Of a stretch of DNA of 64,000 nucleotides, positions 4,296-48,061 are shown piece by piece. Under the pieces are notes generated by a model. The model did not search any database. It saw nothing but the letters and a program-made list of their open reading frames with translations, and had not been told where the DNA came from. The translations under genes and the position numbers were made by a program. The stretch covers positions 31,042,133 through 31,106,132 of the forward strand of contig OZ025263.1 in NCBI GenBank assembly GCA_964019135.1, written 5' to 3'. Origin of the DNA: Arenicola marina (lineage: Eukaryota > Annelida > Polychaeta > Arenicolidae). Position 1 is the stretch's first letter; each line of letters starts with the position of its first letter.

Positions 4296-4384
4296 TATGC
4301 TTGAACCGCTATAATTCTTCTTCAAAATGTAAACCTGGTGATCGTGGGAGTAGCTATAAGTTTACTGGATCGATTCTACGCGCA

Positions 4385-4697
4385 TTTGTGTAGCTGGGCC
4401 TACACTTTAATAGGCTGCAGAGTTCGAACCCTACACAATGGGCAGCGGTGTGCTCCGGTAATGGGGAAAACCGGGTAACCGGAGCCTGAGTGTCTTGTTG
4501 GTCTCAATCTACCACCCCCTGCTTTCGGACGACAGGCCGTGATCGTTAATCCATGGCCCTCCGGTCCGCCCTGCGGAGAGCAGGATATCCATGTTGACGG
4601 GGGCGGGGAGTGGGCACGTGCGCCGTGCGAGCGGGTCAACCGGTGACCCGGACGTGATAAAGAGCCCGTGCGACTGTTGTCAAGTGTTCTCCCATTG
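4385..4697 (+). other. tRNA-like promoter boxes; possible SINE fragment
   Basis: TAGCTGGGCC at about 4391 loosely resembles a polymerase III A box. About 40 bp later GTTCGAACCC (about 4431) fits the B-box consensus GWTCRANNC. No cloverleaf or poly-A tail was seen. It could be a SINE head or chance. Confidence 0.2.
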
Positions 4698-4720
4698 ACG
4701 CATTGTTCGAACCTCACATG
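4698..4720 (+). repeat. 23-bp sequence with an exact inverted match at 29576-29598
   Basis: The 23 bases from 4698 (core GCATTGTTCGAACCTCAC) reappear perfectly in reverse complement at 29576-29598. An exact match of this length is very unlikely by chance. Here it lies about 445 bp outside the 32-bp satellite; at the other site it lies about 30 bp outside. Confidence 0.7.
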
Positions 4721-5164
4721 AGTAAATGTTTTGATTGGGTTTTAACGGTACATTCAGCCTGTCAGAGCTATGTCGTGCCATACTGGATACATTCAATCTA
4801 AATACACGCAAATACATGTGCAAAAGTCTATATTTAGGAGTTATATAGATAATTAGAGTAGGGCATTACATACACAGACAAGGCTTCTGTCTACCTTCAC
4901 CGTTCCTATGAAATGAAATGTTGGTGGTGCTTTTCTCACTGTTTTTGCCCATGTAGGTTAACTTTGGTTATGGATACCTCATGTGACAGTGAAGTTGGGT
5001 GAACCGTGGCCCAGATGCATTACCCTGGTTGTTATGCAGGGCTTATCTGTAGATCTGCAGCGGGGCCGGCTTACTAATGGGCCACGGGCCTAGGGCTGTA
5101 CTTCTGCGGCGCCAGCTTTTTCATCAAGGGTTAGGCACATCGTAACGTTAGTAACGTTAGTAAC
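4721..5164. other. No gene recognised
   Basis: Spacer between the 23-bp motif and the 32-bp satellite. The last 30 bp contain the short direct repeat GTAACGTTAGTAACGTTA. No coding signal was seen. Confidence 0.45.
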
Positions 5165-5935
5165 GTCGCCCTACGCGTTGAATAGCGAACATGAAGGTCG
5201 ACCCACGCGTTCAATATCGAACGTGAAGGTAGACCTACGCGTTCAATATCGAACGTGAAGGTCGACCCACGCGTTGAATATCGAACGTGAAGGTCGACCT
5301 ACGCGTTTAATAATCGAACGTGAAGGTCGACCTACGCGTTCAATATCGAACGTGAAGGTCGACCTACGCGTTCGCTTTCCAACGTGAAAGTCGACCTACG
5401 CGTTTAATATCGAACGTGAAGCTCGACCTACGCGTTTAATATCGAACGTGAAGCTCGCCCTACGCGTTGAATATCGAACGTGAAGCTCGACCTACGCGTT
5501 TAATATCGAACGTGAAGGTCGACCTACGCGTTCAATATCGAACGTGAAGGTCGACCTTCGCGTTCGATATCAAACGTGAAGGTCGACCCACGCGTTCAAT
5601 ATCGAACGTGAAGGTCGACCTACGCGTTGAATATCGAACGTGAAGGTCGACCCACGCGTTGAATATCGAACGTGAAGGTCGACCTACGCGTTGAATATCG
5701 AACATGAAGGTCGACCTACGCGTTCAATATCGAACGTAAAGGTCGACCTTCGCGTTCGATATCGAACGTGAAGGTCGACCCACGCGTTGAATATCGAACG
5801 TGAAGGTCGACCTACGCGTTGAATATCAAACGTGAAGCTCGACCTACGCGTTTAATATCGAACGTGAAGGTCGACCTACGCGTTTAATATCGAACGTGAA
5901 GGGCGACTTACGCGCTCGATATCGAACGTGAAAGC
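5165..5935. repeat. 32-bp minisatellite, about 24 copies, upstream of the integrase gene
   Basis: A tandem array of about 24 units with a 32-bp period. Each unit consists mostly of palindromes: AGGTCGACCT, ACGCGT and, in some units, GTTCGATATCGAAC. Variants are point substitutions such as GACCC/GACCT and TTGAAT/TTCAAT/TTTAAT. The array ends 107 bp before the integrase start codon. The same family recurs in the opposite orientation at about 28905-29545, upstream of the HECT gene. Confidence 0.95.
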
Positions 5936-5967
5936 CGGTTACGGTGACTTACGCGTAACCTGGTCAT

Positions 5968-5975
5968 CCAATCAG
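5968..5975 (+). promoter_or_regulatory. CCAAT box upstream of the integrase gene
   Basis: CCAATCAG lies 75 bp upstream of the ATG at 6043 and just after the 32-bp satellite. A CCAAT box in mirror orientation (CTGATTGG, 28875-28882) occupies the equivalent place next to the second satellite array. Confidence 0.45.
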
Positions 5976-6042
5976 ACTCACGCTTTCATTTTTCCCGCTA
6001 AATATATTTCGGCAAATGCTTAACAGTTTACGTTGAAAAAAG

Positions 6043-6152
6043 ATGGCCACTCAATTCGTTCGTGACGTAAAGTCAAAATTTGAGAGCTGCCTGCCCGATG
6101 TTTTGTATTCTTCAAACGTCAGCGAAGCAACGATGCCGGCTGTTATTTCCAG
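6043..6152 (+). CDS. Integrase gene exon 1
   Basis: ATG at 6043 begins MATQFVRDVKSKFESCL. The donor at 6153 is AG|GTTCGT, phase 2, matching the acceptor phase of exon 2. No start is closer to the family length. Confidence is moderate because only splice phase and context support it. Confidence 0.6.
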
Positions 6153-9100
6153 GTTCGTACCGTCATCAAGTGCTGGGGGGAGGGGGGGGGGTGCACATAA
6201 CCCGTAATCGGAAGTTTTACTAAAGGGTAAATCCAAATGTTGAGAAAATCTATTTATTGCATAATATTAGATTTACATATTGTATATTCGCTGCACCAAA
6301 GAATACTTGTATGGTTTAAACGATAAAATGTATGACAACCGAATAAATTTGAGGTGAAAAAAAGGAAGAAGACAAAATATAGTCCATCTGGCTCAAGTTG
6401 CTCAGAAGCCAAGATACAGGCATTTATATTATCGCATAGGGCGGCAATCTGCAATGTCCAAATCATAGGCACAGTAATTCGACTGGCACAGAAGGGGGGG
6501 GGGGAGGCGGGGGTCCGCACCGCCTACCAATTAATATACAGAGGGGGGGGGGGGCCCGCACGGCCTACTAATATTAATTAGTAGGCGGTGCGGACCCCCG
6601 CCTCCCCCCTCCCCCTCTGTGTCAGTCGATTTATTGTGCATGTGGTCCAAATGACCCCTTTATGGTAAAACGATGTAATGCCAAGCGTGATATTCATTTA
6701 GTCTCCATGAAAACTGAATATATATGTACTTGTTGGCAGCCTCTCACCCCTCCTGAAGCGATTTCTCCGCCAGACTAATTGGTATAAAGGATTAAAGCGA
6801 TAGACATTTTTAAAAGGCTGGTCTATTTATCCAATATTTTTTGTAACAAAAAATTGAATGGTTTCAATTGAGATAACCAGAGGGAAAAAAAATAGGAATA
6901 AAATATAAAAATAAAATACATAAGCTTATATATATAAAATGCATCAAAACATTTTCAAAGCCCCAAAATGTCTTTCCTGATTGCTGGCTGGCGTAAATTA
7001 GAGCAAAAAAACACCCATGCTATGCAATGCCTAGGGTATTGGGTCTTTGGGCTACCCGCTTCTCTGCCAGTGATTTCTGTTAATTAAGCTTATTTCAGTT
7101 TGACCTCTGTATACATATAAAAAGTTATATGGGCCAAGAGTTTTAGTTGCTATGTAAAGCAGTGATGCTTGCGCTTTCTCCAGTAAAATGCCAGAATGAG
7201 CTCAAGAATCCGAAAATGTCAAGATAGCTTTTTGGAAACTTTCCCACTCATGACCATATGTTGTTTAGCTATATCTCTCCACTAATATGCTTTGTGGTAA
7301 ATTTCTTCAACTGACATAGTTAATTTTGTGCCACATATACTGCTGTTTCCTGTGGTGGAAAGGTAACACGTACTCATAAATATATATATATGATATTTTG
7401 CTGATGTAGCAAATGTTTATTGTATTTTTGCATATATATATAGAATGATCCAATATTGGGAATTAAGTAATGTTCTGTTTGACCTGTGAAAAGAAGGTTC
7501 TCCCTTTTTCCAGTTTTCCTTTCACTTCTGTCGGCTAAGCACATGTACCCATTATTACAGAGCTGAAGGTGTTGAAAGGGATCTGATACGCGCCAGAGGG
7601 ACATTACTGTCACAAAGAAATACAGATCAGCTGCTGGAAGATGTAAAATTATTTCTCATGGAAGTGAGACAGATGCGTAATGGAAATGATGCTGCAGGTA
7701 AGCCGATTATAACTACTTGTGTAAGTAGGGATAGGCTGTTGCAGTCCTAGTGTAAGTAGGGTTGCACCATTGCTGTGGTAGTTACTCGGGCTTATCGCTT
7801 AACGGGTTATCGCAACAACTTTATAAGACATCCCTTCGCAGGGGTCCTTCACACGTTTCGCCAGTTCTGACACCAGTTGTTACTTTTTTCGTATAAGTCC
7901 AAAACACAACTTGTTTCCATGTCTATGCGTTTATTTATAAAGTGCCTATATATTTTGTGACCTCTGCTCTAGTCTATCTGTCTCTCCCGCTCATTCTGTC
8001 CTCTTCACATTCCCGCACCCCTTTATATATCCCTAAAAAAAGCTGCCCGTTTACCCCCCACTGCCAAACTACTCCCAGCACGTGCAACGTGTTCGTCCAA
8101 TCCACCTTTTAACCAGCCTCCCTCCTAAATAAACTACAGCTTGACCGCCAAGCGCTAAACACACCCGGCCCGCATTTCTGGACCCAGATCGCCTGCACTA
8201 GAACACCAGACGCCCCCCCGCTGGTCAGCGTTCGTAAACCCTACCGGCCAGTAGTTGCCTCCCCTTGGGATATCTCCCCACCCGTCCACCCTGGACCTAC
8301 GCCCCCTGGGGCGACTTTCTCGCTGTGGTTAACGCACTCTTTGTACTGAGGTCTCCACACTATATTCTGGGTTCCCTACATTGTCATAATGTAAGTAAGG
8401 ATGGACTGTTGCAGGCTGGTATATATTATCTCTTCCTATGCTGGCTACTCTCACAAACATTGATACTGATCCTAAAGTCTTCTCTCCTTCCAGAGTCCAC
8501 TGCATATCAATCTCCTAATGTGTCGAGTGGAATTACAGGTCGTCCAAAATACGACATTACTCACGAGCAACTCAAGTTCTTCATTAACATTAATATGACA
8601 ACTTCCATGATATCGGAAGCACTAAAAGTGTCCCAGGCAACTGTTAAGAGGCGCTTAAGGTAAGAGATCAAATGGGCAACCGTGGATAGACTATTTGTAT
8701 ATTATATCCGTATGGTCATGTGCAATCACGAATCGTATATATTTGTATATCAATGTGTTGAGATACAACACTGCATTTCAATATTGCTTGTTATGGTGTG
8801 GCGCAACTAACCTTTCAGTTTACCAATAATCTGTGTCTCTTTTCAGACAATTCAATGAGAAGTTAAGAGATCGATATAGTACTCTCTCTGATGACAATTT
8901 GGACGAAGCAATTTCTACTGTCATTGGCCACAACCAATCGTTTGGGTATGAAAGCATCCGAGCACGCTTACTGAGTAAGGGAACTAAAGCGCAGCGTTCC
9001 CGAATTCGGAGTTCTGTCGCACGGGTAGACCCAGCGGGTCTTGCCATGCGGGCGATGGCAACTAGGATTGAGCGACGAGTTTACTCTGTCCCGGCACCAA

Positions 9101-10055
9101 ACTCTCTTTGGCACATCGACGGAAATCACAAGCTTATCAGGTACAGGTTATCGGCTTAAATTTCATCGTTAACATAAAATGTTATAAAAAGGTAGACGGT
9201 TGAGAAATTAGAGAAATGACTGGAAAAATATATAGATAATTTGGAAATTAAAGTGATCGAGCAAATGAAAGTTTGCGCAAAAAACATTTGTTCTTATCCC
9301 TTTTGTAGATGGCGAATGGTTATTCACGGAGGAATAGATGGCGCCAGTAGACTTCTGACCTTCTTAAAGGCGTCAGATAACAACAAGAAGGAAACAGTTT
9401 TCAAACACTTCTCAACAGCTGTTGCCTTGTATGGGGTTCCGTCCAGAGTCCGGGTTGTCGAAGGTGGCGAGAACAACGACATAGTGTTATTCATGAAAGT
9501 GTTTAGAATGGGTAACAACGCCGCGTTGAGGGGCAAATCAGTCCATAACCAACGGATTGAACGCCTTTGGAGAGATATGTGGAATGGTGCAACGAATACG
9601 TTCTACCATATGTTTAAAGGAATGGAAAGAGAAGATATCTTGGATCCAAGCCATGAAGATCAAATATGGGCCTTACATTATGTGTTCCTGCCTCGGCTCA
9701 ACGAACAACTCGAGTTCTTTAGAAGACAGTGGAACATGCACTCAATGAGTACTGAGCATGGCAAGACACCAATACAGCAATTTGTGATTGGGTCCCTTCA
9801 AAATCGGAACTCCACCTTCCTGCTACAGAAGAACTATTTGCCAATGTTCAAGCGCCCAGAGATGAGACGCCCTTGCTTCCAGATCTTGCTGAGGGCACCT
9901 CTTACGTGGAAGTTCCGGCAATAGTCTGTCCCCTGGATGAAGTGAGACTGGCCGCTCTCAAGCAGGAGGTTGATCTACTTACAGTGTCAAGGGATAACGG
10001 GGTTTCTCTGTACAAGAGAACACTAGAACACTTTTCTAGAATCGACAAGCAATAG
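6043..10055 (+). CDS. IS3/IS481-like integrase-core gene (five exons)
   Basis: DDE-type integrase gene. The phase-consistent model is exons 6043-6152, 7561-7697, 8494-8659, 8847-9140 and 9309-9924 (440 codons), each joined by GT-AG introns. Residues about 95-140 form a helix-turn-helix (GRPKYDITHEQLKFF...VSQATVKRRLR). Residues about 226-320 hold the catalytic core: LWHIDGNHKLIRWR with Asp229, then GGEN, then NQRIERLW with Glu320. The usual second Asp (family pattern R-S-D-x-GGEN) reads VV here. Such proteins occur widely in cnidarians, amphioxus and fish and resemble transposases of eukaryotic IS3-like DNA transposons. Conserved C-terminal sequence (LPDLAEGTSYVEV through LYKRTLEHFSRIDK) lies in the neighbouring frame and ends at 10055, so the 3' end is frameshifted or mis-sequenced. 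It is a transposase remnant or a domesticated protein, converging on the HECT gene. Confidence 0.8.
6477..6629. repeat. 153-bp inverted repeat in integrase intron 1
   Basis: Arms of about 50-60 bp run from TCGACTGGCACAGA to its near-complement TCTGTGTCAGTCGA. They include a perfect 24-bp core pair (6504-6527 and 6581-6604). The centre is a G-run. The structure is hairpin-forming and MITE-like, though no target duplication was identified. Confidence 0.7.
7561..7697 (+). CDS. Integrase gene exon 2
   Basis: Acceptor ATTACAG|AG and donor GCAG|GTAAGC. It encodes RAEGVERDLIRARGTLL and QLLEDVKLFLMEVRQMRNG, a predicted helical region. Its entry phase fits exon 1 and its exit phase fits exon 3. It is too short to stand out as an open frame. 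Confidence 0.7.
7774..8380 (+). mobile_element. Probable solo LTR in integrase intron 2
   Basis: A 607-bp block begins TGTGGTAG and ends CCTACA. It is flanked by near-identical 4-bp repeats (TTGC/TTGT) and contains a TATA-like CTTTATATAT and an AATAAA in the + orientation. It interrupts a short intronic tandem repeat (TGTAAGTAGGGAT...GTTGCAG at 7721 and 8390). There is no internal coding region, as expected for a solo LTR left by recombination. Confidence 0.45.
8494..8659 (+). CDS. Integrase gene exon 3 (helix-turn-helix)
   Basis: Acceptor CTTCCAG|AG and donor TTAAG|GTAAGAG. It encodes GITGRPKYDITHEQLKFF followed by SEALKVSQATVKRRLR, a DNA-binding helix-turn-helix typical of this integrase family. 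Confidence 0.8.
8847..9140 (+). CDS. Integrase gene exon 4
   Basis: Acceptor TTTTCAG|AC and donor ATCAG|GTACAG. It continues from the HTH (QFNEKLRDRYSTLSDDNLDE) to the first catalytic motif SLWHIDGNHKLI. Exit phase 2 fits exon 5, recreating the family motif IRWRMVIHGGIDG across the splice. Confidence 0.85.
9309..9924 (+). CDS. Integrase gene exon 5 (catalytic core, C-terminus)
   Basis: Acceptor TTTTGTAG|AT. It carries VIHGGIDGASRLLTFLKASD, VEGGEN and SVHNQRIERLWRDMW. The frame ends at 9924 after a basic tail unlike the family. The expected C-terminal sequence lies one frame over and closes at 10055, which points to an indel around 9840-9865. Confidence 0.85.
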
Positions 10056-11138
10056 ATGTTAAAGGACACCGGCTATACATCTATGAGTTTATTAGAGGCT
10101 GTTGTTACAAGTTTTTGTGCATAATGGAATGAAAAAGTCCAGTTTTTATACCATCATCACCTTCCAAGAATGTCTCATAATGGATGCTTACTATTAGGCT
10201 GTGTCCTACATCACGAAGCAAGTCAAGTCTATACTTCATTATAGTCTTAGGTTTCGAGTAAACTCTCCATGGATCAGGTAATTAACCCAAACTTTCTATC
10301 GACAAGTGTTACACAATTGTTGCAATGTTTAACATGACGTGAGGGCTCTGAAATACAGACAACTCCTTGTAACAATAAATTTAGTAGTACCGTTATTGCT
10401 AAGCATCGTATTTCATTCAGTTTACGCCCAGGCATTGTTCAAACACGCTTGCTTCATGAACAGATTTTCTTAGCGGAATTTCACTGGAGAGAAATACAAG
10501 ATGCAGATCGATCCCTCAAACTTAAACATACACGCAATTCCTAAACAACGTCGCATGACGCTGTTGGCAAACAAATATACCGTCCTGAATAGCGCACCAT
10601 AAGTGTTCTAATAGTCAGCCTCGTTCCAACCACATTACTAAAGCATCATCTGATGTACTCCGAACTTCTCCGACAAATAAGCCCCCCATAACCAAATGGA
10701 TGAATTTCCGTTGCTGCATGAAAATGCGGTATTTCTCTTAGACGCACAAACACACCGATGCAGCTTATTCATGTTTAATTTGTTTCTTACTTATCAATTA
10801 TATTTTGAACAACTGGCGAATACGAACAACTGACGAACAATTATAAATGACTACATGTACATGTTTTCTGAAAGCCCGTGCATCATATGTGTAATTGCAA
10901 ATGTGCTTTTCTAAATCCATGTCTGTAGCTGTATTGATGCTGATTCAATAAAAAAAAAGAGCACATCCTTATTACCGCTCATTCAGACTCAGCACCTAAC
11001 ACAAACACTTTCTTAGCAGGTCAAACGCTTGATTTAAAATGTCAATTAACAGAACATATAAGACATCTGACGTAAGCCAGAAATTATGAAACAGTAAGAG
11101 CACGTTCTTATCACCATTAACACGAGTACCACAGCTGA
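10056..11138. other. Intergenic region between two convergent genes
   Basis: No open frame of note. It separates the 3' end of the + integrase gene from the 3' end of the - HECT gene. It contains AATAAA on + at 10374-10379 and again near 10947, followed by a poly-A tract. Confidence 0.5.
10374..10379 (+). terminator. Candidate polyadenylation signal of the integrase gene
   Basis: AATAAA lies about 320 bp after the last conserved codon of the integrase gene, in the correct orientation. Position is the only support. Confidence 0.3.
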
Positions 11139-11395
11139 CTATTCTTGACCAAAGGTTTGGCTGTTGAGGACAAGTTCCGTGAAGGCCGTCACGGCTTCTT
11201 CTGGCGCATATATGCGCCTTTGCAACGTAACGGTCAGGGCACATGTGTTTACAAACGTCGTTTCTCCAAAGTAAACGTCGATTTTTTTGTGAAACCCAAC
11301 GGCCGGTATGGTCGTCGCCCCGGTAAGCCACATCAGGAAAAAGAGCTTAGAGTTGCATATCGAGCTGACAGTTGCAACGGGTGCACCATGATAAA
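11139..11395 (-). CDS. HECT gene last exon (C-lobe, catalytic Cys)
   Basis: Encodes LFFLMWLTGATTIPAVGF, then TTFVNTCALTVTLQRR with the presumed ubiquitin-thioester Cys in the NTC context, then a final helix and stop at 11139. The HECT C-lobe pattern (F-x-TG-x3-P-x-GF, then T-C) is clear. The acceptor AACAG at 11396-11397 was chosen because it restores phase with the previous exon. Confidence 0.8.
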
Positions 11396-14300
11396 CTGTT
11401 TATACTTCAGCGTCTAAATGATCAAGAAGTGCGGGGACACGGCCATTTAGACCTGATTATCCCCCCCCCCTCTTTTGAGCACCTGCTGACTGAGATTCAA
11501 ACATTTCACACAGTGCCAACGGCCGCCGGCAAGGGAAAGTGGCGCTCTAGACGCTTCTGTTGTCAGATATAGTTATAAGGCTAGGCCCCCTGTCGGTGGG
11601 ATCGGCAAATAACATGTGTACACACGTTTTATGACGTTTCACAACAGGCACAAGTTTTCACTTTTCTAGAGGGAAAATTCACGGTTAGACTGTTTTTGTT
11701 ATTGGCAGATAATTGGTGCTGGATATGGTAGGTGTTTATAGTTTGCTATGAACCTTAAGGCCTTATGTTTGTGCTGTTATACGCAAAATATATGCACTTA
11801 TAAGAGCTGCTGACGTTATCCCTTTCAGAGAACAATCAAGCGTTACATTTGCATATGGCCATGTTCTAGATAAGTAACTAGCACATTGCAACGGTGGTCA
11901 ATATCATCTGCCATCCCAAAGTTACGAATTCGTTTCTAGCTGGATTGGTGTCACCGTGGAACAGTTCCTTGTTACCTTGTGTTGCATTCAGAAAGGTAGG
12001 GAACCCCTGCGCCGTCGCTACGTCCTGCCTGCGAGTGTTATCATTTTCGGCGTAGTGGAAGGTTAACATGCGGCCCACGGCTGCTGGCGTCACGGGCTTT
12101 ACGCCGCCGCTGAAGAAACGACGGGATGCTTCCACGTATTGTTCTTCTCGCAGCAGAGAAAGAACCTCATGCACGTTCATCCCTAACGACGGAAAAATGA
12201 ATTAACAACCAGTTAAGGTAAGCCACCCATAATAGCAAGGTAAAAGAGCTCTGTATTTGTGATTATTTTATGAAAGTATACCCAATTAGACACCTTCTGG
12301 TGAATTTGTATGATACTTTACCGTCCCGTTAAAAAAATATTCTCCATTTTCCAAGTATACCCCCATTTCACAAAATGACCAGAACTTGACACCTACCACG
12401 AACATGGATATATTTGTTACAATTCAGCTAAAAATTAAGTCAATATCATCAGTAAGAGCTCATTGGAAAGCTTAAACCTAGTGCAATACAGGAATGATAT
12501 TCAACAATGTAAATAGTAGCCACAAAAAATAACAGAATGGCAATAATAAAGTGCAGTTATGCAAAAACATGACCGTTTTTGCCAAAATTCGAAGTCACCA
12601 CATTCACAAAATTGGCTATAATTTCATCAAAAATGAAAATCATGACACCAAACCACGTTTAAAAACATAGTTCTTGTAATAAAAATAAAGAAAAATATAA
12701 GTAGCCGTGCAAATTTCCCGAGAAACACGTCCCGAAACTTGAAAATGTTATTTCAGAAATATTTTTTGGAGCAGCTTATTTCACACCAATTATCAGTAAT
12801 TTACGCCTTGTGCTCATATTTTAATAAATCTGGTTATATATAATGGTCTCCGATATAATTATGATCTACACGAATGTTTTCTGAACTATTTACACGTATT
12901 CTCCATGTTTTTTTCTTGAATATTCGAAATTTATCTCGAAGAGCCATTTTGGGGGAAATACCCTGTGAATGACGTCACGAATTGGGGATTCTCTGTGAAT
13001 GACGTAACGAGTTAGGGAATTCCCCTTTCACTGACACCCGCCGATGTTTGTCGATGGTTAACGAAGGTCTTCTCTAAATCGCCGAAGCTTATCATACGAT
13101 GTTCTATTTATTTTACCTATGTCACCACTTCTTTTCCTGCGTTTTATTCGTGCTTTGTTTCATTAAGTCTGCTTAATATATCATGGCTACCACCCGCCGA
13201 TGTTTGCCGATGTTTACCGAGGTCTGCTCAAAATTGCCGAGGCTCATTATGGGTGGCTTACCTTAAGGAAATAGTTACTGCGCTTCAGTATAAAGCTTAG
13301 GCATCGCGCAACCGTACTTATGTTCACTGTACATGTATATCGGTTATGTGCCGTCAGAAGCAATATAAGGACATTTTAAATTTCCCAGAAAACTATATCA
13401 AGTATGTGACAGTTGGCGGCCGGCTGTGAAAGCAGGCCACCGTCACGAGGAAATGAGAACAACTGAGGTGGCGGTCAAGAGGTTTATTTACCTGTATGGT
13501 GAATAAATACAGATAGAACATAAACAAATGAATGATCAGCCGTTGACGGACTGTCCACGGCTACGAATAGAGAGGAAGTCAAGTTTATTACACGCTGCTT
13601 ACATGAGAACTGTATCGTCACTTATGTGCATAAGACTAATACTATTATATAAACAATAAGATACCGTTTAAACTAGTCTCATAATTATGTAATAATGAAC
13701 GAGAGTATGAGTTGGAAGTGAAATGAAAATGAGAGGCACATACCTGTATGGTGAATAAATACAGATAGAACATAAACAAATGAATGATCAGCCGTTGACG
13801 GTCTGTCCAAGGCTACGAATAGAGAGGAAGTGAAGTAAGTTAGGCTTTCAAACCAGCGTCACATGCCACTTCTCTCTGATGACCAATGAGGGATGAATAT
13901 GATGTGACTGACCAATGAGATGTGGTTATAGCGGGTAGTCATGACTACATGATAACAATTATGGAGTCACCTAGTGAGAGAATGAAACTATGGAAAGCCA
14001 ATGAACTAATGTTATATTGTTATAATGCTATGGAAGACCACTCAAATAATAATCCTGCTACAATTCCCCCCGGGGTTAAAATCATGTCGTCCCTTGACAT
14101 GACTAGTGATATCTTGTTGAAAAAGAAGAAAAAGAACATTAGTAGCTTCTGTTACAAAATTCCACCTAAACTACTTGCGGAATTCTTCAGCATCTGTAGT
14201 ATAAATAATCAATACTGCGTGTGGTCATGTAGTAGCTGACGGCGTAACTACATGAGTACATTATACATATATCATCAGCATCGACAGATTTATTTAATAC

Positions 14301-20300: not shown

Positions 20301-23300
20301 AATTGATCAATAAATCAGGCGTAAATCAGATGAGAATCTGAAGAAAGAAATTAGAAAGTTCATTTCTAATGTTCCAATCTGAAATAAATTGCAGACAAAT
20401 GGAAAGGAGATAATAATGAACTCAATCACTTGGAAAAGTAATCAACGTCGGCCGAAAATATTAGCCTATCAACGGCAGGTTCTCATTCTGTGGACGCTCC
20501 TCTCCGGGTATAAATACCACGCGGTTGTATTTAGTTCATACATGTTCTTGCGCGCCAGTCCAGTGATAATAATTCAACGCACCTTATATTTAGTACAAGG
20601 AATATGATTGGACACAACCATGACGACAGGAAATAAAAAACCGCACCCACAAGAACAGTAAATTAGTGGTAATAGAGGGGGGGGAGCTGATTGGTGAACA
20701 CCACGTGAAAACAGCCCCCCACCCCCATCCGCCCATACGGCCACGAAATTACTTTGCCCACACCCTGGTTCTTCATGACACAAGTTATCGCCAAAAATAA
20801 ATTTCCGTAGCTTTTTTGGTATTTCGATAGCTGGCCATGTTAGACTTCCGGTGAAAAGCACTGGCCAAGCTTGGAGGGATGAAATTAGGTTGTACCACCA
20901 ATTATTGTGTATTTAAATTCTACAGTCAAGCCGAATAGTTATGTTTTTATGCAAGGTTTCTGAAAAGGTAACTGTAGACGACCTTAGTTAAGAACTTTTT
21001 TCCGTATCGACTTTTATTTAGCCACGGCGTGGATATAAGCCTTATGTTTTCAAAACCCTTACCTTGTGTATGGGTTTTGATGTCAAAGCTACGAATAGAG
21101 AGGAAGTCAAGTTTATTACACGCTGCTTACATGAGAACTGTATCGTCACTTATGTGCATAAGACTAATACTATTATATAAACAATAAGATACCGTTTAAA
21201 CTAGTCTCATAATTATGTAATAATGAACGAGAGTATGAGTTGGAAGTGAAATGAAAATGAGAGGCACATACCTGTATGGTGAATAAATACAGATAGAAAA
21301 TAAACAAATGAATGATCAGCCGTTGACGGTCTGTCCACGGCTACGAATAGAGAGGAAGTGAAGTAAGTTAGGCTTTCAAACCAGCGTCACATGCCACTTC
21401 TCTCTGATGACCAATGAGGGATGAATATGATGTGACTGACCAATGAGATGTGGTTATAGCGGGTAGTCATGACTACATGATACCAATTATGGAGTCACCT
21501 AGTGAGAGAATGAAACTATGGAAAGCCAATGAACTAATGTTATATTGTTATAATGCTATGGAAGACCACTCAAATAATAATCCTGCTACAAGTACATTCA
21601 AGTTTTGTTTTGCATATATTTAAAATTTCTGGTAGTTGCATGCGGTAACATATACATTCCATCACCTTCTTGGAACTGTTGAAGTTCCTCCTTACATGAT
21701 GACACTAGGTTTGCTATCAGCGCGACTTGCAAACCCGGTATGTGTTCTCTTGTAAAATAAATGGCTGGAACAATGAAGCCGGCCTCGGTGGCGAAGTCGA
21801 AGATGGAGGCGTACAGTTCTCTAATTTCTTCTTCCGATCCATTTCTCATCTGATAAATAATTTATATTTGCACCCATAATGTTTTTCGACTTGAAGTACC
21901 TCACAATAAGCAGAAATCGCCGGGCCAATGAAAACGTCTTTCCGCAAGGCCATTATCGCTAATTAATATGCGCGCCTGTGTGTCCTAAAGGGGGGTTCAC
22001 ACTAGGCGACCAATCGTTAATATCGTGTGACAAACCTTACGACGAATCATTTAACAAAGCTTACGTGCGTCGACGTCAGATGAGATAGAACCCTCCGTAA
22101 TAAACACGACCAATCGAACGGCCTCGTCAGCCAATTATCTATGTGGCTCATATACCGTTAGATTAAAGGCTGTGTGTGGGTCTTACACAAAGTAAAGTCA
22201 AAAACATACCTTCGTCAGGATTTCTTGAATGCCTGTTGGTAAATCACTGACGCTGTATGAAATGACGATGTCGTGCAACAGGAAATCCACAACTGATTCT
22301 GCAAAGATAGGCACTCCCGGGCCGTCCTGCAGTATTGACAGCGCGACCAACTTGCTCAGGTAACGAAAAGTGTCTCCAAGAAATTTCGCCGGAATGTCAG
22401 TGATCCCTCCTGGCCTGACAATGGACAAATCAGACACCAGAGAGATAAATTGGCGTTAAGAATGGTGGGTCTGTTAGAAACTACATGAATGATACATCGT
22501 TATAAAAACACAAGCTGTGTACCGCTGCTACGTATGTCGACAAAGCGCTCTAATCGTAGGAAGGAAGGATGAAATTAAATCCTTTTTATAACAATGTTTG
22601 CAAAATTGTCTTTGTTGATCATACTAGATTGAATGAAGCTTAGCAAGTAACTACAGAAGCTTAAAGCTAAGAAACGTAACATTATAAGAGCTGCTATTGT
22701 CATCCCAAGCTCAACCTCACACCTTGATAAGACTCAAATATTTATATAAGTATGGCCAAAGAAGCGAAAATAAAGAAAATGCAGGAGCACACAGGAAATA
22801 TAGGAGCGCTGGGAGATATATATGAGGGCTCAATGCTTCCATTGTACATTTAAAAGACCATTCACACGGAAAAAAACTACGAAATAACGAAGAATGTATA
22901 ACGATCAAGTTCGCGTGGCCACTGCGATTTCGCCATAGAGAGAGTTTACTGTAATTATCATTATATTCTGTTCGACTTACCCGTTACATAAATTGAATGC
23001 AACAACTGGGGCAAAAAAAATGACCAGAACTCCCTGCGTAGACCTCCGAGGTCCACGCCTTCTTCGCCAATGAAGCACACTTGCATGGCATGATGTATAT
23101 TCGGCAGGTATCTCATCACCACAGAATCGTGAAGGACCGACTCCCTCCTCACTTCTAATAGTATAACGTCATCTCCAACGTTTGCAATTTGTTCCGCCCT
23201 ACGTTTGAGGAGAGCAGCCTGTAGGTCTCCTGAGGCAATGGTATACCTTTTCAAAAACAGAAATAAAATGGTACTGGGCTGTTGTTGTTTAGTTGAAAGA

Positions 23301-26300
23301 CATGCCACCAGACAAAGTAAATCGTTTCACTGTTTACCATAGTTGTGCACAACTGTGTCAACTTGCGGTACCGTTATGTTGCGTTAAAAATGTAATAAAA
23401 TAACTGACAATCTTGATATGCAAGATATTAGCGTCACACCGATAGCAGAATTTCACAGGGCGGGAAATCCATGTACAGACCGATCCTCTGTCACAGGCGT
23501 TATAGCTTCCAGGTCCGGTGTCGTCCGGTCGATCTTAGCCGCATCGTCCCCAAGATCTCTGGCGATATCCTTTATTACGCCCAGAGAGAACCAGTAATGA
23601 TTATATACTAATTTGCAGTGGTCTGACCCTATATAGTTCAGTTATTTAATGCACACTTCTTATATATACGAATAATAATATGTACCTTTCCATCATATAT
23701 CAGCGTATGTTAAGAGCGACAGCGATCGATCGATTTTGACTCCGTGAAGTATGTTCAAGTACACGATAAACTAATAGAATAATGAACACGCAACACCTAA
23801 AACGAGTTACGTCGCATAAAATAACACGCATTTTATTGTGAATAGCACTTGTTCTCAAGCCAAGGAGTTCAAGTGTTCTTATTATTCTAACACTTAATCC
23901 AATTACGTATTTCAGAATTCTCCGGTCTAAATAAAAATGCAGCTATAATGGAATAATGCGGAATAGAAACGAAACTTCTCTCAACAGAACATGTTTTAAA
24001 ACAAAGAACAATTACGCTATACCACTCATTTAGGACTTGAATATCATGCATTGAAACAAATTCAACAATCAACAGACGCTTTACCGTCTTATGACGAGTT
24101 AGATGCAACCTTAGATAACCTTCACTAAAAATTGAGATTGTCGGGACCATTTCCAAACGAGTAACAAAGGTAAGCAACTGTATACCATGAAGTGGGCTTG
24201 CGGGCGTTCATTATTTCCTGAATAATAAAAGGTATAGTTCGGGCTTGCGTTTCCAAATTTTATGAGACTAAGATTGGCACAATGAAATTAATAACTTGTC
24301 CAAAGCACTGCGTTTCATATATATTTAGAGCCACTCGCACATATGCATAGACTATCAGGGAAATCTACAAGCCTTCGAGATATCGTACAGATAAATACTT
24401 ACCAAGTTGAATATCTTGACTTGACGAAGCATCCAGTGGCTGCTAAAATTTCCAGACAGTTATTTTTATATTTGCATATTTCCAGTTGTACAAGATTATC
24501 AAGACTCTTGATTCTTACGAATAAAGGCATGTAGGACCTACCATTATTATCCTGTAATGAAGAATTATCCAACCAAAATGGCGGTGCATTTTCCCATCGT
24601 AAAAGTTTACATATTCTCCAGTACCTTCACCTTAGGAGTTCTAATATGTTCAGCCTTTACACAACCAGCTGATAATCAGATCTTAAGAATTAACACATAT
24701 ATAGTTGGTATAATTGGGAGTCACAATAAAGGTACTTACAACATGCCCTGCAATCTCCTCAACATCCTGTAAGTCCTCAATTAAACTCGGCCTTCCTTCA
24801 TCTACAAATATGTTTGCTTGTCAACATGTCACCCAGCAAGTAATCGCAACTAGAATTTACCTTTATGTGACTGCAACGTTATGTCTAAGAACTAGTTGCT
24901 GCTCTCCTCCTACGACTAGACAATATTTGTAAAAACGCTAGGTATTCAGTAAGATTATCAACTCCTTACGAACATTTCACTCACCCACGACGCTCTCGTC
25001 TGGTTCCACTTCCTCCTACGTAAAAGGTTGACAAGTCAACGCGATTATTATAGATACATTACAATCTGTGTTACATTAAGTTAAACAATTGCACAAGTTA
25101 ATTTTAGGACCTGCATGCATAATGGTGTAACATACTCAGTGTCTGACACAACATACTTACAGCAATCAGTTCGGGTAACAACTCCAGCTCGTCTACAAAA
25201 AATTGAAATACTTCAATCAATATATTTGTTTCAGTTAGTTTTACACTGTGCAGTGTATTCTTACTATTAATCGGCTGCCAATCAGAATATTTAAAAAGAA
25301 TCTGTCTCCAGGTATAAATAGAAGCATAACCAAACATACCGTGTTCCTCCAAATCTTCTCTCTCCGGGAACGTAATCTTAAAAAGAAAAACGAACGGATA
25401 TATACGACATGCCTAGGACATGATTTAATTTATAGAAGGGAATGTACGTAACCGGAGCTATAACGACCTCATGAAATCATGTTAACAGTAAAATATATTT
25501 GTATATAAATAATATATTTTCTCTAATCACCTTCATTTCAGTTCATTTCATAAATAATATCACAGTGGTCCTTGCATTATACGGTCCCTCCATTATACGA
25601 CTCCCTCCGTTATCCGGTCTTTTCGCTGTGCGCGGAACACTTTTATATGTTAAGGCCCCTTTATTATGCGACTCCCTCGCGAAACGCAACTCACGACTGA
25701 CATTTCGGCTCGTTATACGACCGGCACACAATTTAATCCCTTTGCTGCGTGGCGGCGCGGCGTGGCAGTCGACCCGATTGGCTCTAAACAATTAAACAAC
25801 ACATCGCGCTAATCTGAGCAGACGTCATTGTTATTCGCACCTTCAGCATAGCAGCTTTGTTAGACTGAATGCTGATGCTATAATGGATAAGTGAGAAAGA
25901 GGAGCCAGAGAAGCATCAAAGACTCTGAAGCTCAGGACAATATTGTACGATGAGTTTAACAGACTGACGTTTGCCTGCTTTACAACAGCACGGTATACAA
26001 ACATTCCTCTGACGGGAAAGCTCTTCCATGGCTCTTCTCACTGGCCCTACGCTTAGATGATTTCTCCGCTTCCAATGGGTCGCTGTACAGCTTCCAGCCA
26101 CGCCACAATATAAAAGCACCAGTGCTGCATAGTCGGCTAAAGTTAACCCGGAGACAGTTGCCGATTAGTGTTGGCGATACTTAAGCAAAAACTGCCCATT
26201 TCGGGGCATTCCCTCTATTATACGACTCCCTCTGTTATACGGTCTTTTCGGGCTGGCAGAAACGAAGTCGCATAACGCAGGGACCACTGTATATGACAAT

Positions 26301-28791
26301 TACCTCATTGGACTTAGGCATTATCCAAAGTTTTGACCTCCGCTGGCCATCAAAGGCATGAATCCCTTTTGGTGTTACGGGTTCAACAGTAATCTCTACA
26401 AACTGCCTCTGTTTATTCAAGAAGCATAATCTGTACTCTTGATCTTGCAAGATGGGGAACTTCGTTCTGAATTTCTCGGCAAATTGTTCTGCCGATGCTC
26501 CCCGATCCACTAAAATTTTTTTACTTCTGTAGTAGACGCTCTCTGAAACCCCTAAAATATTTTAGACTGACCGTAATTCATTAGCATGTGGATGCGGATG
26601 AATCTAACTTTTAGACCAAACAGAACTACAAGCGATATACTGTACGCCTATATTGCAACAGAAAGTGCTACTTCCAAAACTAAATATTTTCCCGGCCCGC
26701 TAATTAGACGCTGGGTGTGTGCGCGAGACCTCACGACGGTCTCCGCGCGTGTCTGGCTGGCGCACCCCTTATCCGTCTGGATCCACTGCCCATGCAACGA
26801 GCAAGAGCGAGATGAGGATATCTCGGATAAAACTGAGTGAAATTAGTAGATATGTTTTGATTACAATAAGGAAAAAGAAAAAGAACTTCAGGCGTGGATC
26901 TTAGTGTTGAAGATAAAATACAACTATCTATCAAAACCTGCATATAAATATGATCTATTACCAATGAGGGAATTAACCACATGTACTTACTCTTCTTGCG
27001 ATATGCCGTGCACAAAGACCAACTATAAGTTTCCATTTTCACTGGTATTACTACCATGTGAAATATATATAGCAGCTGTTTCTTTGGCCGTCGTGGTCGG
27101 GGATCAAAGTGCCTGAAACTGAGGTATCAAGTGCTGAATATCTTTACCAGGTTTAGGATGGTCAATGGTCTATTAGATATTTCACATCTTGCATGACGCA
27201 GCTTTGATATCAGATATCACTAGACATGCGTTCCGCTGCAGGGCCATTTGCTCGATCCCAATTTAAAGAGAGAAGTCTGGGAAAGTGATGCAGACCGGAG
27301 ATCCCATCACTTTCTTTGCAAAGAGTATTGGGTACCCCTGACACATGGCTCTTCACACTCATTGAACTTCACATGGTCAAGATATGATCTAACAGGTTAA
27401 AGCATCCTGTTGAAACCAAGTTTTCCAACAAAAATCCCAAATATAGTGTAATTATTTAGTTTCATCTGCAATGAAATGGATAACATAATATAGATCCAAC
27501 AAATATTATATCCACCATGCCTTCCTTTTGATGTCAGAATTTAGTTGGTTAGTTATATATTCACTTATATATGTCTTTACTTTTATTTTGCTGTTTGTTA
27601 GTTAAATAGTGTTTTGAGCATTGTGAGAAGGAAGGGGAGAGTGCAGCCATGCGTCCAGGCTAATCCCACTACTTTTCAAACAAGGATGTAGGATCTTCGG
27701 CTGTTCATTCTGCAGCCAGACATGACAAAAGCAAAGCCACCAATCCACCAATACCTGAGTGTGCGGGAATGGGGTTTTCATTCCACCGTGAACTGGGAAT
27801 GAGGCAAGTAGTTCTTTGTGAAGTGGGAATGGGGTATTAGCTGACCGTCACGATCAAGAATTTCATTAGTCAGGTAATATTAAATAACGATGAATCAGGA
27901 AATGGCTAATCTAAATCATGTTCCGCCCGTCCTATGTATGCTGGAAGTTATCCTTTTCAATTCATTGTGACCTGGAAATAAAGAAATTTATTCTTCATGA
28001 TCTGGAAACACGACGCCTACCTCCCCTCCAGTGAACTTGGGCCACCTACAATATTGTGGGTGGCCCAAGTTCGCTGTCAAAAATGAGCCGGGTAAATTTC
28101 AAAGATTCACAAATTCAAACTTTAGACTTGCCAGGCCTGTCTCTTGTAACTTATCAGTCAACAATAAAATGCGGATTACTGCTGAGAACTACAAAAAACC
28201 AAAAAAAGGGTTTCTGTAGTGAAGATGGTGGCAGGTACATACATGTAGTATATTTTTTTATATACTAATATATATAGACTATATAAATTTAATCACATGA
28301 TAATCGATGTGATCTGAAAGAATTACTCGATTTCAGATGACAACCGCAAATTTACGGAAAATATGGGCCGAAACGAGAGCCTACAGCATGTATGACTTTG
28401 ATTTTATAGACTAAGCTTATATAAACTTAATCACATGATTAATAGCGATATGTGATCTGAAAGAAAAACTCGATTTCAGATAACATGGTCTTCGCTACAG
28501 AAACCCTTTTCTGGGTTTTGCGAAGTTTTGCGGAGTTTCCCGCATTATTCCGTGTTTTATTGATGCCTACTTATCACGGGGTGCGCTAACCGCGGCCCAC
28601 ATGGCATGCTGCCTAGACTGGTCAACTTCAGGCAAGTTCAGTCATTTTAGTCATTTTAGTCACCCAGTTTCTGGAGAATTACGCGGGCATACCTACCCAG
28701 AGACGAAATCATCGTCAGAGTTTTCAACGTCACCAACATTCTGGCGAAACCGATCCCCCAAACGCGCCAACCGTTCCAGCGCCACTATATG
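11139..28791 (-). CDS. G2E3-like HECT-domain E3 ubiquitin ligase gene
   Basis: Multi-exon ligase gene. In transcription order the exons are 28791-28697 (tentative), 27022-26991 (tentative), 26509-26304, 25376-25340, 25192-25161, 25015-24985, 24801-24740, 24442-24403, 23607-23481, 23246-22981, 22409-22210, 21849-21666, 12182-11976 and 11395-11139. Every junction is GT-AG and phases agree throughout; from 26509 onward the model gives about 549 codons. HECT proteins accept ubiquitin from an E2 on a catalytic Cys and pass it to substrates. Visible parts are an N-terminal PB1-like segment, an acidic linker built of microexons, the HECT N-lobe (EEGVDLGGLRREFW) and the C-lobe (LTGATTIPAVGF, then NTCALTVTLQ with the presumed active Cys). 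A 9.5-kb intron holds a TTAA element and a Gypsy element. The 5' end is uncertain; an alternative start is Met at 27057. Confidence 0.78.
11976..12182 (-). CDS. HECT gene penultimate exon
   Basis: Acceptor GTTAG|GG and donor CAAG|GTAAC. It encodes MNVHEVLSLLREEQYVEASR through AVGRMLTFHYAENDNTRRQD, the segment before the C-lobe (family pattern F-x-G-SN-x-R). Entry phase 1 fits the exon ending at 21666, 9.5 kb away across the intron that carries two transposons. Confidence 0.8.
12217..13262. mobile_element. Non-autonomous DNA transposon with TTAA target duplication
   Basis: A 1,046-bp element with perfect 17-bp terminal inverted repeats, GGTAAGCCACCCATAAT (12217-12233) and its complement (13246-13262). 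TTAA lies on each side (12213-12216, 13263-13266), as expected for piggyBac- or Kolobok-type insertion. No transposase frame was seen. It contains a direct repeat of CACCCGCCGATGTTTG. It sits 30 bp upstream of a HECT-gene 3' splice site. Confidence 0.85.
13405..14062 (-). repeat. Gypsy 3' LTR (left copy)
   Basis: In element orientation it begins TGTAGCAGG and ends TGTCACA. It is 658 bp long and contains an internal direct repeat (13491-13570 and 13742-13831). It matches the right copy over about 500 bp. Confidence 0.85.
14329..16029 (-). pseudogene. Gypsy integrase region
   Basis: Carries the zinc-binding HH-CC module (HLGRDKIIDLLQQRYYW ... CMTC), then the rve catalytic core (MDFLSL, ITDHFTRFAMAIP, GNGQVERFNATLLG) and a long acidic C-terminal tail with a duplicated EPGPPDIGI unit. 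It functions in cDNA integration. This is part of the Gypsy element and is treated as a fossil retroelement frame. Confidence 0.9.
16177..18234 (-). pseudogene. Gypsy reverse transcriptase and RNase H region
   Basis: Has the RT motifs IDYRKLNARTVKDAHSIPRI, LKSGYWQV and LLYLDDIIVYS, followed by RNase H (HTDASMQGLGAVLYQ, ALKWVVTDTF) and a connection region typical of Ty3/Gypsy pol. It is part of the fossil element at 13405-21590. Confidence 0.92.
18074..18685 (-). pseudogene. Gypsy aspartic-protease region
   Basis: Sits between gag and RT. SLLETGSQVTTVGSSFL lies at the position of the retropepsin active-site loop and is followed by a hydrophobic LVVDQ...VPLVVGTNVL stretch with the protease flap and end pattern. 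Fossil element part. Confidence 0.75.
18553..19701 (-). pseudogene. Gypsy gag (PNMA/ZCCHC12-like capsid, CCHC knuckle)
   Basis: Capsid-like helical domain starting IRIPLFSGDGGKGELSYFEW and continuing LRGTAARVLRYLG, then a coiled segment and a CCHC zinc knuckle (CDRCARFGHTQDRC). The capsid resembles the Gypsy lineage from which vertebrate PNMA/ZCCHC genes are thought to derive (inference from motif style). Fossil element part. Confidence 0.85.
19749..20009 (-). pseudogene. Gypsy gag N-terminal RRM-like segment
   Basis: MCITGLPDDVAIAEVECLF and VLRVAFVLFYST look like the RRM-like amino end found in PNMA-type gags. It lies just upstream of the capsid frame in the same element. Confidence 0.5.
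20010..21088 (-). other. Gypsy leader and untranslated region
   Basis: About 1.1 kb between the gag start and the recognisable 5' LTR. No domain was seen. It contains G- and C-runs near 20675-20725. It may include a smaller insertion, but no termini were found. Confidence 0.4.
21089..21590 (-). repeat. Gypsy 5' LTR (right copy)
   Basis: About 500 bp, about 99% identical to the left LTR and ending at the AGTA target duplication. It contains the same promoter-like and polyadenylation-like motifs. Confidence 0.85.
21666..21849 (-). CDS. HECT gene exon
   Basis: Acceptor TATCAG|ATG and donor GAAG|GTGATG. It encodes MRNGSEEEIRELYASIFDF and ELQQFQE, matching the central HECT region between N- and C-lobes. 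The nearby Gypsy end is only about 70 bp from the donor. Confidence 0.8.
22210..22409 (-). CDS. HECT gene exon (N-lobe)
   Basis: Encodes FRYLSKLVALSILQDGPGVP and HDIVISYSVSDLPTGIQE, the region corresponding to G-R-x-x-A-L-S-x-x-G-GP in HECT N-lobes. Acceptor GCCAG|GA and donor AAG|GTATGT. Both phases fit the neighbouring exons. Confidence 0.82.
22981..23246 (-). CDS. HECT gene exon (N-lobe start)
   Basis: Encodes YTIASGDLQAALLKRRAEQI and FIGEEGVDLGGLRREFW, the diagnostic start of a HECT domain (family pattern F-x-G-E-x-G-VD-x-GG-x-RREF). Acceptor AAAAG|GT and donor ACGG|GTAAGT. Confidence 0.88.
23481..23607 (-). CDS. HECT gene linker exon
   Basis: 127 bp with acceptor ATTAG|TA and a weak donor CG|GTCTGT. 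Entry phase 1 and exit phase 2 are exactly what its neighbours need. It encodes YNHYWFSLGVIKDIARDLGD followed by an acidic, Thr-rich stretch. Confidence 0.55.
24403..25376 (-). CDS. HECT gene cluster of five acidic microexons
   Basis: Five small exons of 37, 32, 31, 62 and 40 bp lie at 25376-25340, 25192-25161, 25015-24985, 24801-24740 and 24442-24403. Each has an AG acceptor and a strong donor (GTATGT, GTAAGT, GTGAGT, GTAAGT, GTAAGT). Phases alternate 0-1, 1-0, 0-1, 1-0, 0-1. They encode ITFPEREDLEEH, DELELLPELIA, EEVEPDESVV, DEGRPSLIEDLQDVEEIA and QPLDASSSQDIQL, an acidic flexible linker between the amino-terminal domain and HECT. Alternating phases would allow paired exon skipping. Confidence 0.68.
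25563..26289 (+). mobile_element. pogo/Tigger-like DNA transposon remnant
   Basis: A 727-bp element with imperfect terminal inverted repeats CAGTGGTCCxTGCxTTAT (25563 onward and complement ending 26289). The right flank is TA; the left TA is degraded to CA. Internal ATTATACGACTCCCTC motifs repeat. A fragment around 25950-26020 on + reads LYDEFNRLT ... NIPLTGKLF, resembling the pogo/Jerky transposase DNA-binding region, with stops. It lies 14 bp from a HECT-gene 5' splice site. Confidence 0.72.
26304..26509 (-). CDS. HECT gene N-terminal PB1-like exon
   Basis: Encodes DRGASAEQFAEKFRTKFPIL, YRLCFLNKQRQFVEITVEP and GQRRSKLWIMPKSNE, the conserved amino-terminal domain commonly paired with HECT in amphioxus and fish G2E3-like proteins. 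Acceptor TTTTAG|TG and donor GAG|GTAATT. Confidence 0.78.
26991..27022 (-). CDS. HECT gene tentative upstream microexon
   Basis: 32 bp encoding WSLCTAYRKK with donor AGA|GTAAGT and acceptor TATAG. Its phases bridge the 28.7-kb exon and the PB1-like exon. Alternatively the frame extends upstream to a Met at 27057 and this is the first coding exon. Confidence 0.4.
27058..28032. other. Probable intron; no feature recognised
   Basis: No coding similarity, no tandem repeat and no transposon ends seen in this stretch. Confidence 0.4.
28033..28072. repeat. 40-bp near-perfect palindrome
   Basis: GAACTTGGGCCACC is followed by TACAATATTGTGGGTGG and the complement of the left arm. Only one mismatch interrupts the dyad. 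It could be a small hairpin transposon end or a binding site. Confidence 0.75.
28197..28511. mobile_element. Small inverted-repeat element (MITE-like)
   Basis: GGGTTTCTGTAGTGAAG (about 28207) and its near-complement CTTCGCTACAGAAACCC (28491-28507) bracket two diverged internal copies of a block with TTAATCACATGAT and TGTGATCTGAAAGAA, each also holding a CTCGATTTCAGAT dyad. No coding capacity. Confidence 0.5.
28697..28791 (-). CDS. HECT gene tentative 5' exon
   Basis: Acceptor TTGTTAG|CA and donor TCTGG|GTAGGT. It encodes VALERLARLGDRFRQNVGD followed by an acidic NSDDDF, plausible for the amino end of this ligase family. There is no in-frame Met, so an earlier exon or UTR exon would be required. 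Confidence 0.4.
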
Positions 28792-28874
28792 CTAACAATT
28801 GCACGAACTTGAGTTGCACCCACCGTATGCACGGCTTCAACAAAACACCCAAAATTAGTTCTGCAACCTAAACG

Positions 28875-28882
28875 CTGATTGG
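28875..28882 (-). promoter_or_regulatory. CCAAT box near the HECT gene 5' end
   Basis: CCAATCAG on the - strand lies between the second 32-bp satellite and the tentative 5' exon, mirroring the arrangement at the integrase gene. Confidence 0.35.
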
Positions 28883-28904
28883 TCAGCCGCTTACTTGAAT
28901 TAGT

Positions 28905-29545
28905 CAACCTTCGTGTAAGTCAGGGTACGTGTAAGTCGGGGTACGCGTAAGTCAGCCTTACCTACGCGTCGGTCAGGGTGCGTGACGTAAGAGGACTGAC
29001 GCGTTCAATATTGGACGCGTAGGTCAGGGTACGTGAAGGCCAGCAGTTACGCACGTAAGTGGCACTGACACGTTCAATATGGAACGCGTTAGTGGGCTTT
29101 CACGTTCGATATTGAACGCGTAAGTGGCACTAACAAGTTCAATATTGAACGCGTAGGTCGACCTTCACGTTCGATATTAAACGCGTAGGTCGACCTTCAC
29201 CTTCGATATTGAACGCGTAGGTCGACCTTCACGTTCGATATTGAACGCGTAGCTCGACCTTCACGTTCGATATTCAACGCGTAGGTCGACTTTCACGTTC
29301 GATATCGAACGCGTAGGTCGACCTTCACGTTCGATATTCAACGCGTAGGTCGACCTTCACGTTCAATATTCAACGCGTAGGTCGACTTTCACGTTCGATA
29401 TTGAACGCATAAGTGGCACTGACACGTTCAATATTGAACGCGTAAGTCGCCTTTCACGTTCGATATTGAACGCGTAGTTCGACCTTCACGTTCGATACTG
29501 AACGCGTAGGTCTACCTTCACGTTCGATATTGAACGCGTTCAAAC
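28905..29545. repeat. 32-bp minisatellite, inverted relative to 5165-5935
   Basis: Same family as the array at 5165-5935 but in the opposite orientation. About 12-14 clear units (GACCTTCACGTTCGATATTG...) run across 29100-29545, with more degenerate units containing TACGTGTAAGTC toward 28905. AGGTCGACCT, ACGCGT and GTTCGATATTGAAC dyads are kept. Confidence 0.93.
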
Positions 29546-29575
29546 GTCGACTTTTGACCCTAATGGCGATTCATA

Positions 29576-29598
29576 CATGTGAGGTTCGAACAATGCGT
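29576..29598 (-). repeat. 23-bp inverted partner of 4698-4720
   Basis: Perfect reverse complement of the 23 bases at 4698-4720. It lies about 30 bp outside the satellite. Confidence 0.7.
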
Positions 29599-47985: not shown

Positions 47986-48041
47986 GTGGGGGTCCAGGGG
48001 GGGCACAGGAGGCCCGTGCACCCCCCCCCTCACACTTTCGC

Positions 48042-48061
48042 TGTATATATATATATATATA
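48042..48061. repeat. (TA)n microsatellite
   Basis: Uninterrupted TATATATA tract just downstream of the GNAT gene's stop codon (on the gene's strand). Confidence 0.8.

Follow-up and report, generated by a model that had tools for sequence, protein, structure and literature searches.

Probable remains of a large IS3EU-like DNA transposon pairing an integrase-type transposase gene with a HECT-like ligase gene in Arenicola marina

The window, a 64,000-nucleotide stretch of an Arenicola marina contig, contains at 4698-29598 a block in which two genes converge: an integrase gene on the + strand, read from 6043, and a HECT-like gene on the - strand, with located exons from 26507 to 11139. The integrase gene comprises five exons, all on the + strand: exon 1 (6043-6152), with a splice site placed by eye and a counterpart in a second genomic copy, B; exon 2 (7561-7697), with splice sites placed by eye; exon 3 (8494-8659), which is helix-turn-helix-like and gives weak Pfam matches below cut-off; exon 4 (8847-9140), which carries the first catalytic D in WHIDG; and exon 5 (9309-9924), which encodes the rva_4 core. 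We found that the integrase matches the rva_4 integrase core (PF24764) at E 5.1e-65 with the main exon and at E 2.3e-78 with the exons joined by hand. The match to Pfam rve fell below threshold, and a profile of the rva_4 core recovered retroviral integrases from the PDB only weakly (best E 0.0016; six of nine matches at E<=1). In exon 5, the second catalytic D is replaced by V, and the C-terminal part is out of frame relative to copy B. The D, D, E triad is present in the three other aligned rows (B, K and the protein at C3:54242561), indicating that the window copy is a broken member of a DDE set.

The exons of the ligase gene all lie on the - strand. From its 5' side they are an upstream exon (26298-26507) that is conserved in copies A and B and has no Pfam match; the N-lobe exon (22979-23245; GVDLGGLRREFW); the matched parts of three further exons at 22207-22407, where the N-lobe continues, 21664-21846 and 11977-12180; and the last exon (11139-11399), an open frame encoding the C-lobe with a conserved cysteine in FVNTCAL. 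This cysteine, which we take to be the catalytic cysteine of the C-lobe, is invariant across all three aligned families. The W (window) and B proteins gave no match to Pfam HECT (PF00632) at E<=0.1, which counts against the explanation we prefer below; five integrase-linked relatives elsewhere pass the Pfam HECT cut-off. A single-sequence PDB search with the ligase returned HECT ligases as 35 of 36 matches (best E 0.0019), and a three-family profile returned them as 47 of 47 (best E 4.2e-6, RSP5). We call the protein a divergent HECT-like E3 ligase with putative activity. The ligase parts scanned showed no PHD or RING domain, and no substrate domains of known kinds were found in the ligase.

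Within the HECT intron between 12180 and 21664 sits a nested LTR retrotransposon (13560-21591, - strand), identified by its LTR stretches (13560-14063 and 21088-21591, 99.4% identical over 504 bp) and its reverse transcriptase, RNase H and integrase domains. The 25-kb block thus owes about 8 kb to a later insertion. Outside the block, positions 41735-50897 and 54795-64000 form a tandem duplication of ~9.2 kb, 98.7% identical, with many 8-bp GAAGCGAG-type repeats and repeated reading frames.

A 32-bp satellite lies upstream of both genes. The integrase-side subterminal array (5165-5932, + strand) holds 24.0 copies, and the HECT-side array (29069-29539, - strand) holds 14.7 copies of the inverted unit; 281-nt arms of the two are 92% complementary. 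Between the left array and the integrase start is a CCAAT box (5968-5972, +), and another lies on the HECT side (28878-28882, -; ATTGG on the + strand), where a second ATTGG occurs at 29010. The initial annotation had described convergent DDE integrase and HECT genes, inverted satellites upstream of both 5' ends, a CCAAT box following each array and a perfect 23-bp inverted match outside the arrays, and each of these features is indeed there, the last at 4699-4721 (+) and 29576-29598 (-).

The exact 32-mer occurs at at least 23 positions in ten places of the window's own assembly (867 Mb, 762 contigs; all genome counts given here are lower bounds). The same sequence read backwards occurs at none, so this recurrence is not chance. 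At three of the nine other 32-mer places (L001, L002 and L004), TATRMGGCGCCATTAGGGTC precedes the array. The window's right end reads TATGAATCGCCATTAGGGTC... (29551-29575), the terminal inverted repeat being TATGAATCGCCATTAGGGTCAAAAG on the - strand. Because this terminal sequence is shared with L001, L002 and L004, the element ends at 29575, and the 23-mer starts at the next base, outside it. The 23-bp match was considered as a terminal repeat and rejected: it adjoins the right terminus from outside, and its left copy, which is not a transposon end, lies in sequence similar to another genomic place, next to a highly repeated stretch. The stretch containing that left copy (4647-4745) resembles genomic place L011 (74% over 116 columns) and, over shorter lengths, L012-L014. 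Beside it, 4511-4576 recurs at at least 41 other positions (40 of 769 candidates scored), which would fit a dispersed, SINE-like repeat. Beyond the 23 bp, we found no significant similarity between the window flanks; the match itself may have arisen when a patch was copied in the course of repair, or both occurrences may belong to a single kind of repeat. Local alignment found no left terminus in 4301-5400. The missing left terminus explains why no target duplication is visible at the window copy, as the initial annotation had reported.

The termini recur widely in the genome. The W-type terminus (up to 3 mismatches) occurs at least 73 times (36 forward, 37 reverse) and that of a sister family, AB, at least 68 times (34 in each orientation), with none in either control. 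When neighbouring termini less than 30 kb apart were taken as end pairs, we found at least 39 convergent pairs (24 W and 15 AB) versus 1 divergent and 6 same-strand pairs. The elements so bounded measure from 92 bp to 21,740 bp. Nine of the W pairs belong to one duplicated cluster, at C11:32232602-32835595: these copies are ~1 kb long and spaced ~65 kb apart, and segmental duplications are their probable carriers.

Flanks were compared for 31 of the 39 pairs, with one of the 9 C11 copies included. Of these 31, 14 have an exact 6-bp target duplication and 22 have one with at most 1 mismatch; by set, the first gave 12 of 24 exact and 19 of 24 within one mismatch, and the second gave 2 of 7 and 3 of 7. 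In contrast, mispaired flanks gave 0 exact duplications of 552 and 5 of 552 within one mismatch. When lengths of 3-10 bp were scanned, the only exact flank match of another length among 24 pairs was one of 5 bp. Nine of the 31 pairs have no good 6-bp duplication, which counts against the explanation we prefer: C1:74638866, C13:29005375, C17:11962375, C13:18333374, C5:14157215 (which has a 5-bp match instead), C2:51611182, its duplicate on C663 (an AB pair with identical flanks), C2:44149753 and C1:15292893.

Some copies join the two sides of the block directly. At L002, the integrase-side end is joined to sequence corresponding to 27764-28120 on the HECT side (95.8%), and the same junction is apparent by eye at L001; internal deletions of one unit would give such junctions. 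Together, the convergent pairs with duplications and the junctions at L002 and L001 indicate that both ends belong to one mobile element. Three places (L096, L103 and L104) hold 92-bp, near-palindromic mini-elements composed of two facing AB end pieces and one ACGCGTTCAATATTGAACGCGT-like centre; since L104 repeats the flanks of L103, these are two distinct insertions. An exact 6-bp duplication also flanks an array-less copy of 92 bp, a further point against our preferred explanation, in that arrays were not required for movement unless this copy shrank after insertion.

The gene pair also recurs. A query with the HECT N-lobe exon of B gave six listed matches, all within 20 kb of an integrase and all convergent with it. 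The C-lobe exon query likewise gave six, all within 20 kb, five of them convergent and the sixth a decayed locus on C9. Thus all 12 listed close matches to HECT exons, on different chromosomes and with different flanks, adjoin an integrase (11 convergently); for a random site, the probability of lying within 20 kb of a listed integrase is at most 0.0028. The K N-lobe query (E<=10), which reaches the M HECT at E 5e-5, gave at least 27 matches, nine of them at loci already counted. Among the other 18, 14 are near an integrase, all convergent, and four are not (two on C373, C4:16.88M, which adjoins a Pfam HECT match, and C17:14.87M, which adjoins several). Pfam HECT itself has at least 62 matches; five are near an integrase, all convergent, and the other 57 may include both host genes and orphan relatives.

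Viewed from the integrase, 24 of the 61 listed positions have a HECT-like neighbour: W, three AB copies, K, N, M, three units at C2:28.7-28.8M, eight at C8:24.6-25.0M, and one each at C2:26.0M and on C9, C13, C18, C19 and C613. The remaining 37, with no HECT-like match nearby, weigh against our preferred explanation, in a set that includes exon fragments and decayed copies and with HECT detection by single exons being limited. At C8:24576970-25003677, eleven integrase matches are spaced ~41 kb apart and eight of them face a HECT-like match convergently, so that integrase-HECT units are amplified here in tandem. The recurrence of the pair at many genomic places makes the ligase look like a working transposon part rather than an ordinary host gene. 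The initial proposal that the 25-kb block is one transposable unit is upheld by copies elsewhere with the same ends, 6-bp duplications and the same pair, except for the ~8 kb contributed by the later LTR insertion; these copies also support its reading of the satellites as subterminal or promoter repeats and of the ligase as an accessory.

Other families follow the same plan. Copies A (C17) and B (C182) of the AB family share 98.7% identity across a main block of 6.2 kb and have different flanking sequences. B carries integrase and HECT genes between both ends (14,008 bp, duplication TCGCAT), as does a copy at C20:8372092-8393831 (21,740 bp, duplication TACGGC); the right end of A was not found within the stretch read. 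A third family, K (C244), has integrase and HECT genes in 15,125 bp, termini TATCGC..GCGATA and the duplication AGTTTT; the flanks of its relative N (C3) do not match. A fourth lineage, M (C10:14.6 Mb), has a convergent integrase-HECT pair and, on the HECT side, a 21-bp array read as palindromic; no array was found on its other side within the 19 kb read, again a point against our preferred explanation. The array units of W, AB (a 21-mer, TTACGCGCGTAAGTGACTGGG, in opposite orientation at either end of B) and K (approximately TGAATTCAAGATATCTTAAAT, inverted at both ends) are unrelated in sequence and inverted at the two ends in each family, and their palindromes exceed shuffled expectation (P 0.004 for W, 0.005 for AB and 0.02 for K). 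An alignment of B's two ends spans 328 columns at 88% and takes in both array and CCAAT box; the similarity gives out ~60 bp short of the integrase ATG and ~30 bp short of the proposed HECT ATG.

Silent differences across families are saturated in both genes (pS 0.79-0.85), which makes the dN/dS ratio unusable; pN is 0.21-0.24 for the HECT exons and, for the integrase, 0.14 between W and B and 0.41-0.42 against K. Because the proteins are conserved where silent sites are saturated, we conclude that both were under selection across families and that the ligase was maintained by it. Integrase identities (W-B 76.6%, W-K 43.2%, B-K 43.0%) disagree with those of the HECT protein (60.9%, 65.5% and 59.8%, respectively), which suggests that ligase and transposase modules were exchanged between families, or that rates changed strongly, in a comparison of three taxa. 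A 53-bp minisatellite in the HECT N-lobe exon counts against our preferred explanation: B carries 3 repeats and A carries 29, and either number should shift, and so break, the frame compared with a single repeat. The halves of this exon lie ~4.7 kb apart in the C20 copy, suggesting a larger expansion.

Our data make it very probable, taken as a whole, that block 4698-29598 is the worn remains of a large, autonomous-type DNA transposon, an IS3EU-like cut-and-paste element in which an integrase-type DDE transposase and a divergent HECT-like E3 ligase converge, and that a transposase of the family mobilized its short, internally deleted relatives in trans. The class assignment draws on termini and target duplications; the transposase itself matches rva_4 (PF24764). 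The window copy itself is probably immobile, given the loss of its second catalytic D, its C-terminus out of frame relative to B and its missing left terminus. Among the matches listed from the same assembly, no integrase exceeds 76% identity to it, and the source that moved the short W copies is thus presumably lost or absent from this genome.

Such an element would use each end as a combined transposition end and promoter. The transposase would act at the terminal repeat and probably bind the palindrome-containing satellite units, while on either side array and CCAAT box would drive a gene inward, and the two genes would thereby be expressed and regulated together. Given the exact duplication at the array-less 92-bp copy, we favour a mainly regulatory or enhancing role for the arrays. 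Less certainly, the ligase might benefit the element by ubiquitinating the transposase itself or host factors of silencing, repair or the cell cycle; our leading suggestions are that it counters host control or tunes the transposase.

Could the transposon be real and the HECT gene passively captured, useless cargo from the host? The frame-breaking minisatellite in the ligase of A and B, the 37 of 61 integrase positions without a HECT-like neighbour and the short copies entirely without a ligase are what such cargo would lead one to expect. We nevertheless consider this unlikely, because no fewer than four distinct families (W, AB, K and M) have the convergent pair, because the ligase protein is conserved while its silent sites are saturated, and because the 37 are drawn from positions that include fragments and decayed copies, with single-exon detection limited. 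We give almost no credence to an ordinary host HECT gene beside which integrase and satellites arrived independently. The initial annotation had named independent occurrence of the parts as evidence against one unit, and ends and satellites without genes do exist, yet as paired-end short copies with duplications; moreover, 12 of 12 listed close HECT matches adjoin an integrase, where a fraction of at most 0.0028 is expected, and full-length copies with both genes carry target duplications, which already contradicts independent arrival.

A retrovirus-like or Ginger/Polinton-type integrase element, in place of an IS3EU-like one, appears highly improbable. The weak PDB matches to retroviral integrases (best E 0.0016) and the sub-threshold rve match point toward it; against it, the TA..TA termini and 6-bp duplications are those published for IS3EU in the accessible text of PMC10045372, and the H2C2/rve retroelement integrase in the window belongs to the separate nested element. 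We also considered IS481EU, for which that text gives target duplications of about 4, 15 or 25 bp (PMC10045372), and rejected it, as exact matching peaks at 6 bp among the lengths of 3-10 bp scanned. No integrase or ligase relatives were confirmed in viral contigs.

If the block is, as we prefer to read it, an IS3EU-like element with its own ligase, then the few accessory enzymes retained by eukaryotic DNA transposons, among them the alpha-kinase and TET/JBP of fungal IS3EU, would be joined by a ubiquitin ligase. Such an element also offers a tangible origin for multicopy HECT genes that otherwise pass as belonging to the host. Its tandem-satellite ends, wholly different in sequence between families and constant in plan, present a case in which the co-evolution of a DNA-binding transposase with its sites can be tested. 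As a tentative, somewhat speculative extension, an animal lineage of long standing may have fixed a partnership between a DDE transposase and a transposon-specific HECT ligase, both driven from inverted end modules of fast-changing palindromic satellites read by the transposase; the ligase would remove host restraint, ligase modules would be swapped between transposase lineages, and many 'G2E3-like' genes of amphioxus and fish would be such transposon genes.

In the open literature, searched partly by title and abstract and with Repbase reports outside its scope, we found no paper joining IS3EU with HECT or describing a transposon-borne HECT, and none linking 'phase-specific E3 ubiquitin-protein ligase' to transposable elements, while two that mention IS3EU and ubiquitin are, judged by title, on other subjects; the integrase-HECT pairing may already be recorded in Repbase. 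The portions of PMC10045372 on IS3EU describe TA..TA termini and, usually, 6-bp target duplications. We found such termini in W (TATGAGG..CCTCATA), AB (TATGAGGGG..CCCCTCATA) and K (TATCGC..GCGATA), with 1-2 terminal bases altered in some copies and only the right end kept in the window copy, and the 6-bp duplication at the frequencies given above. The element thus resembles IS3EU in its integrase-type DDE transposase, TA..TA termini, 6-bp duplications and terminal inverted repeats, and differs from IS3EU as those portions describe it in its accessory HECT gene and tandem satellite ends (PMC10045372). Fungal IS3EU, in the accessible sections of PMC12730594, carries an alpha-kinase gene opposite the transposase with TET/JBP between. 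Our element shares with these fungal TET+ elements the 6-bp duplications and an accessory enzyme gene opposite in orientation to the transposase; however, the accessories there are an alpha-kinase and a TET/JBP dioxygenase and here a HECT ligase, and the ends there read TAYGG..CCRTA and here TATGAGG or TATCGC (PMC12730594, same sections). Like RSP5/NEDD4-type HECT ligases, the ligase has an N-lobe GVDxGG region and a C-lobe cysteine, found by profile; unlike them, it is too divergent for the Pfam HECT model and is linked to an integrase. G2E3-like HECT genes are multicopy in amphioxus and fish, and they and this ligase are alike in being divergent, multicopy HECT genes.
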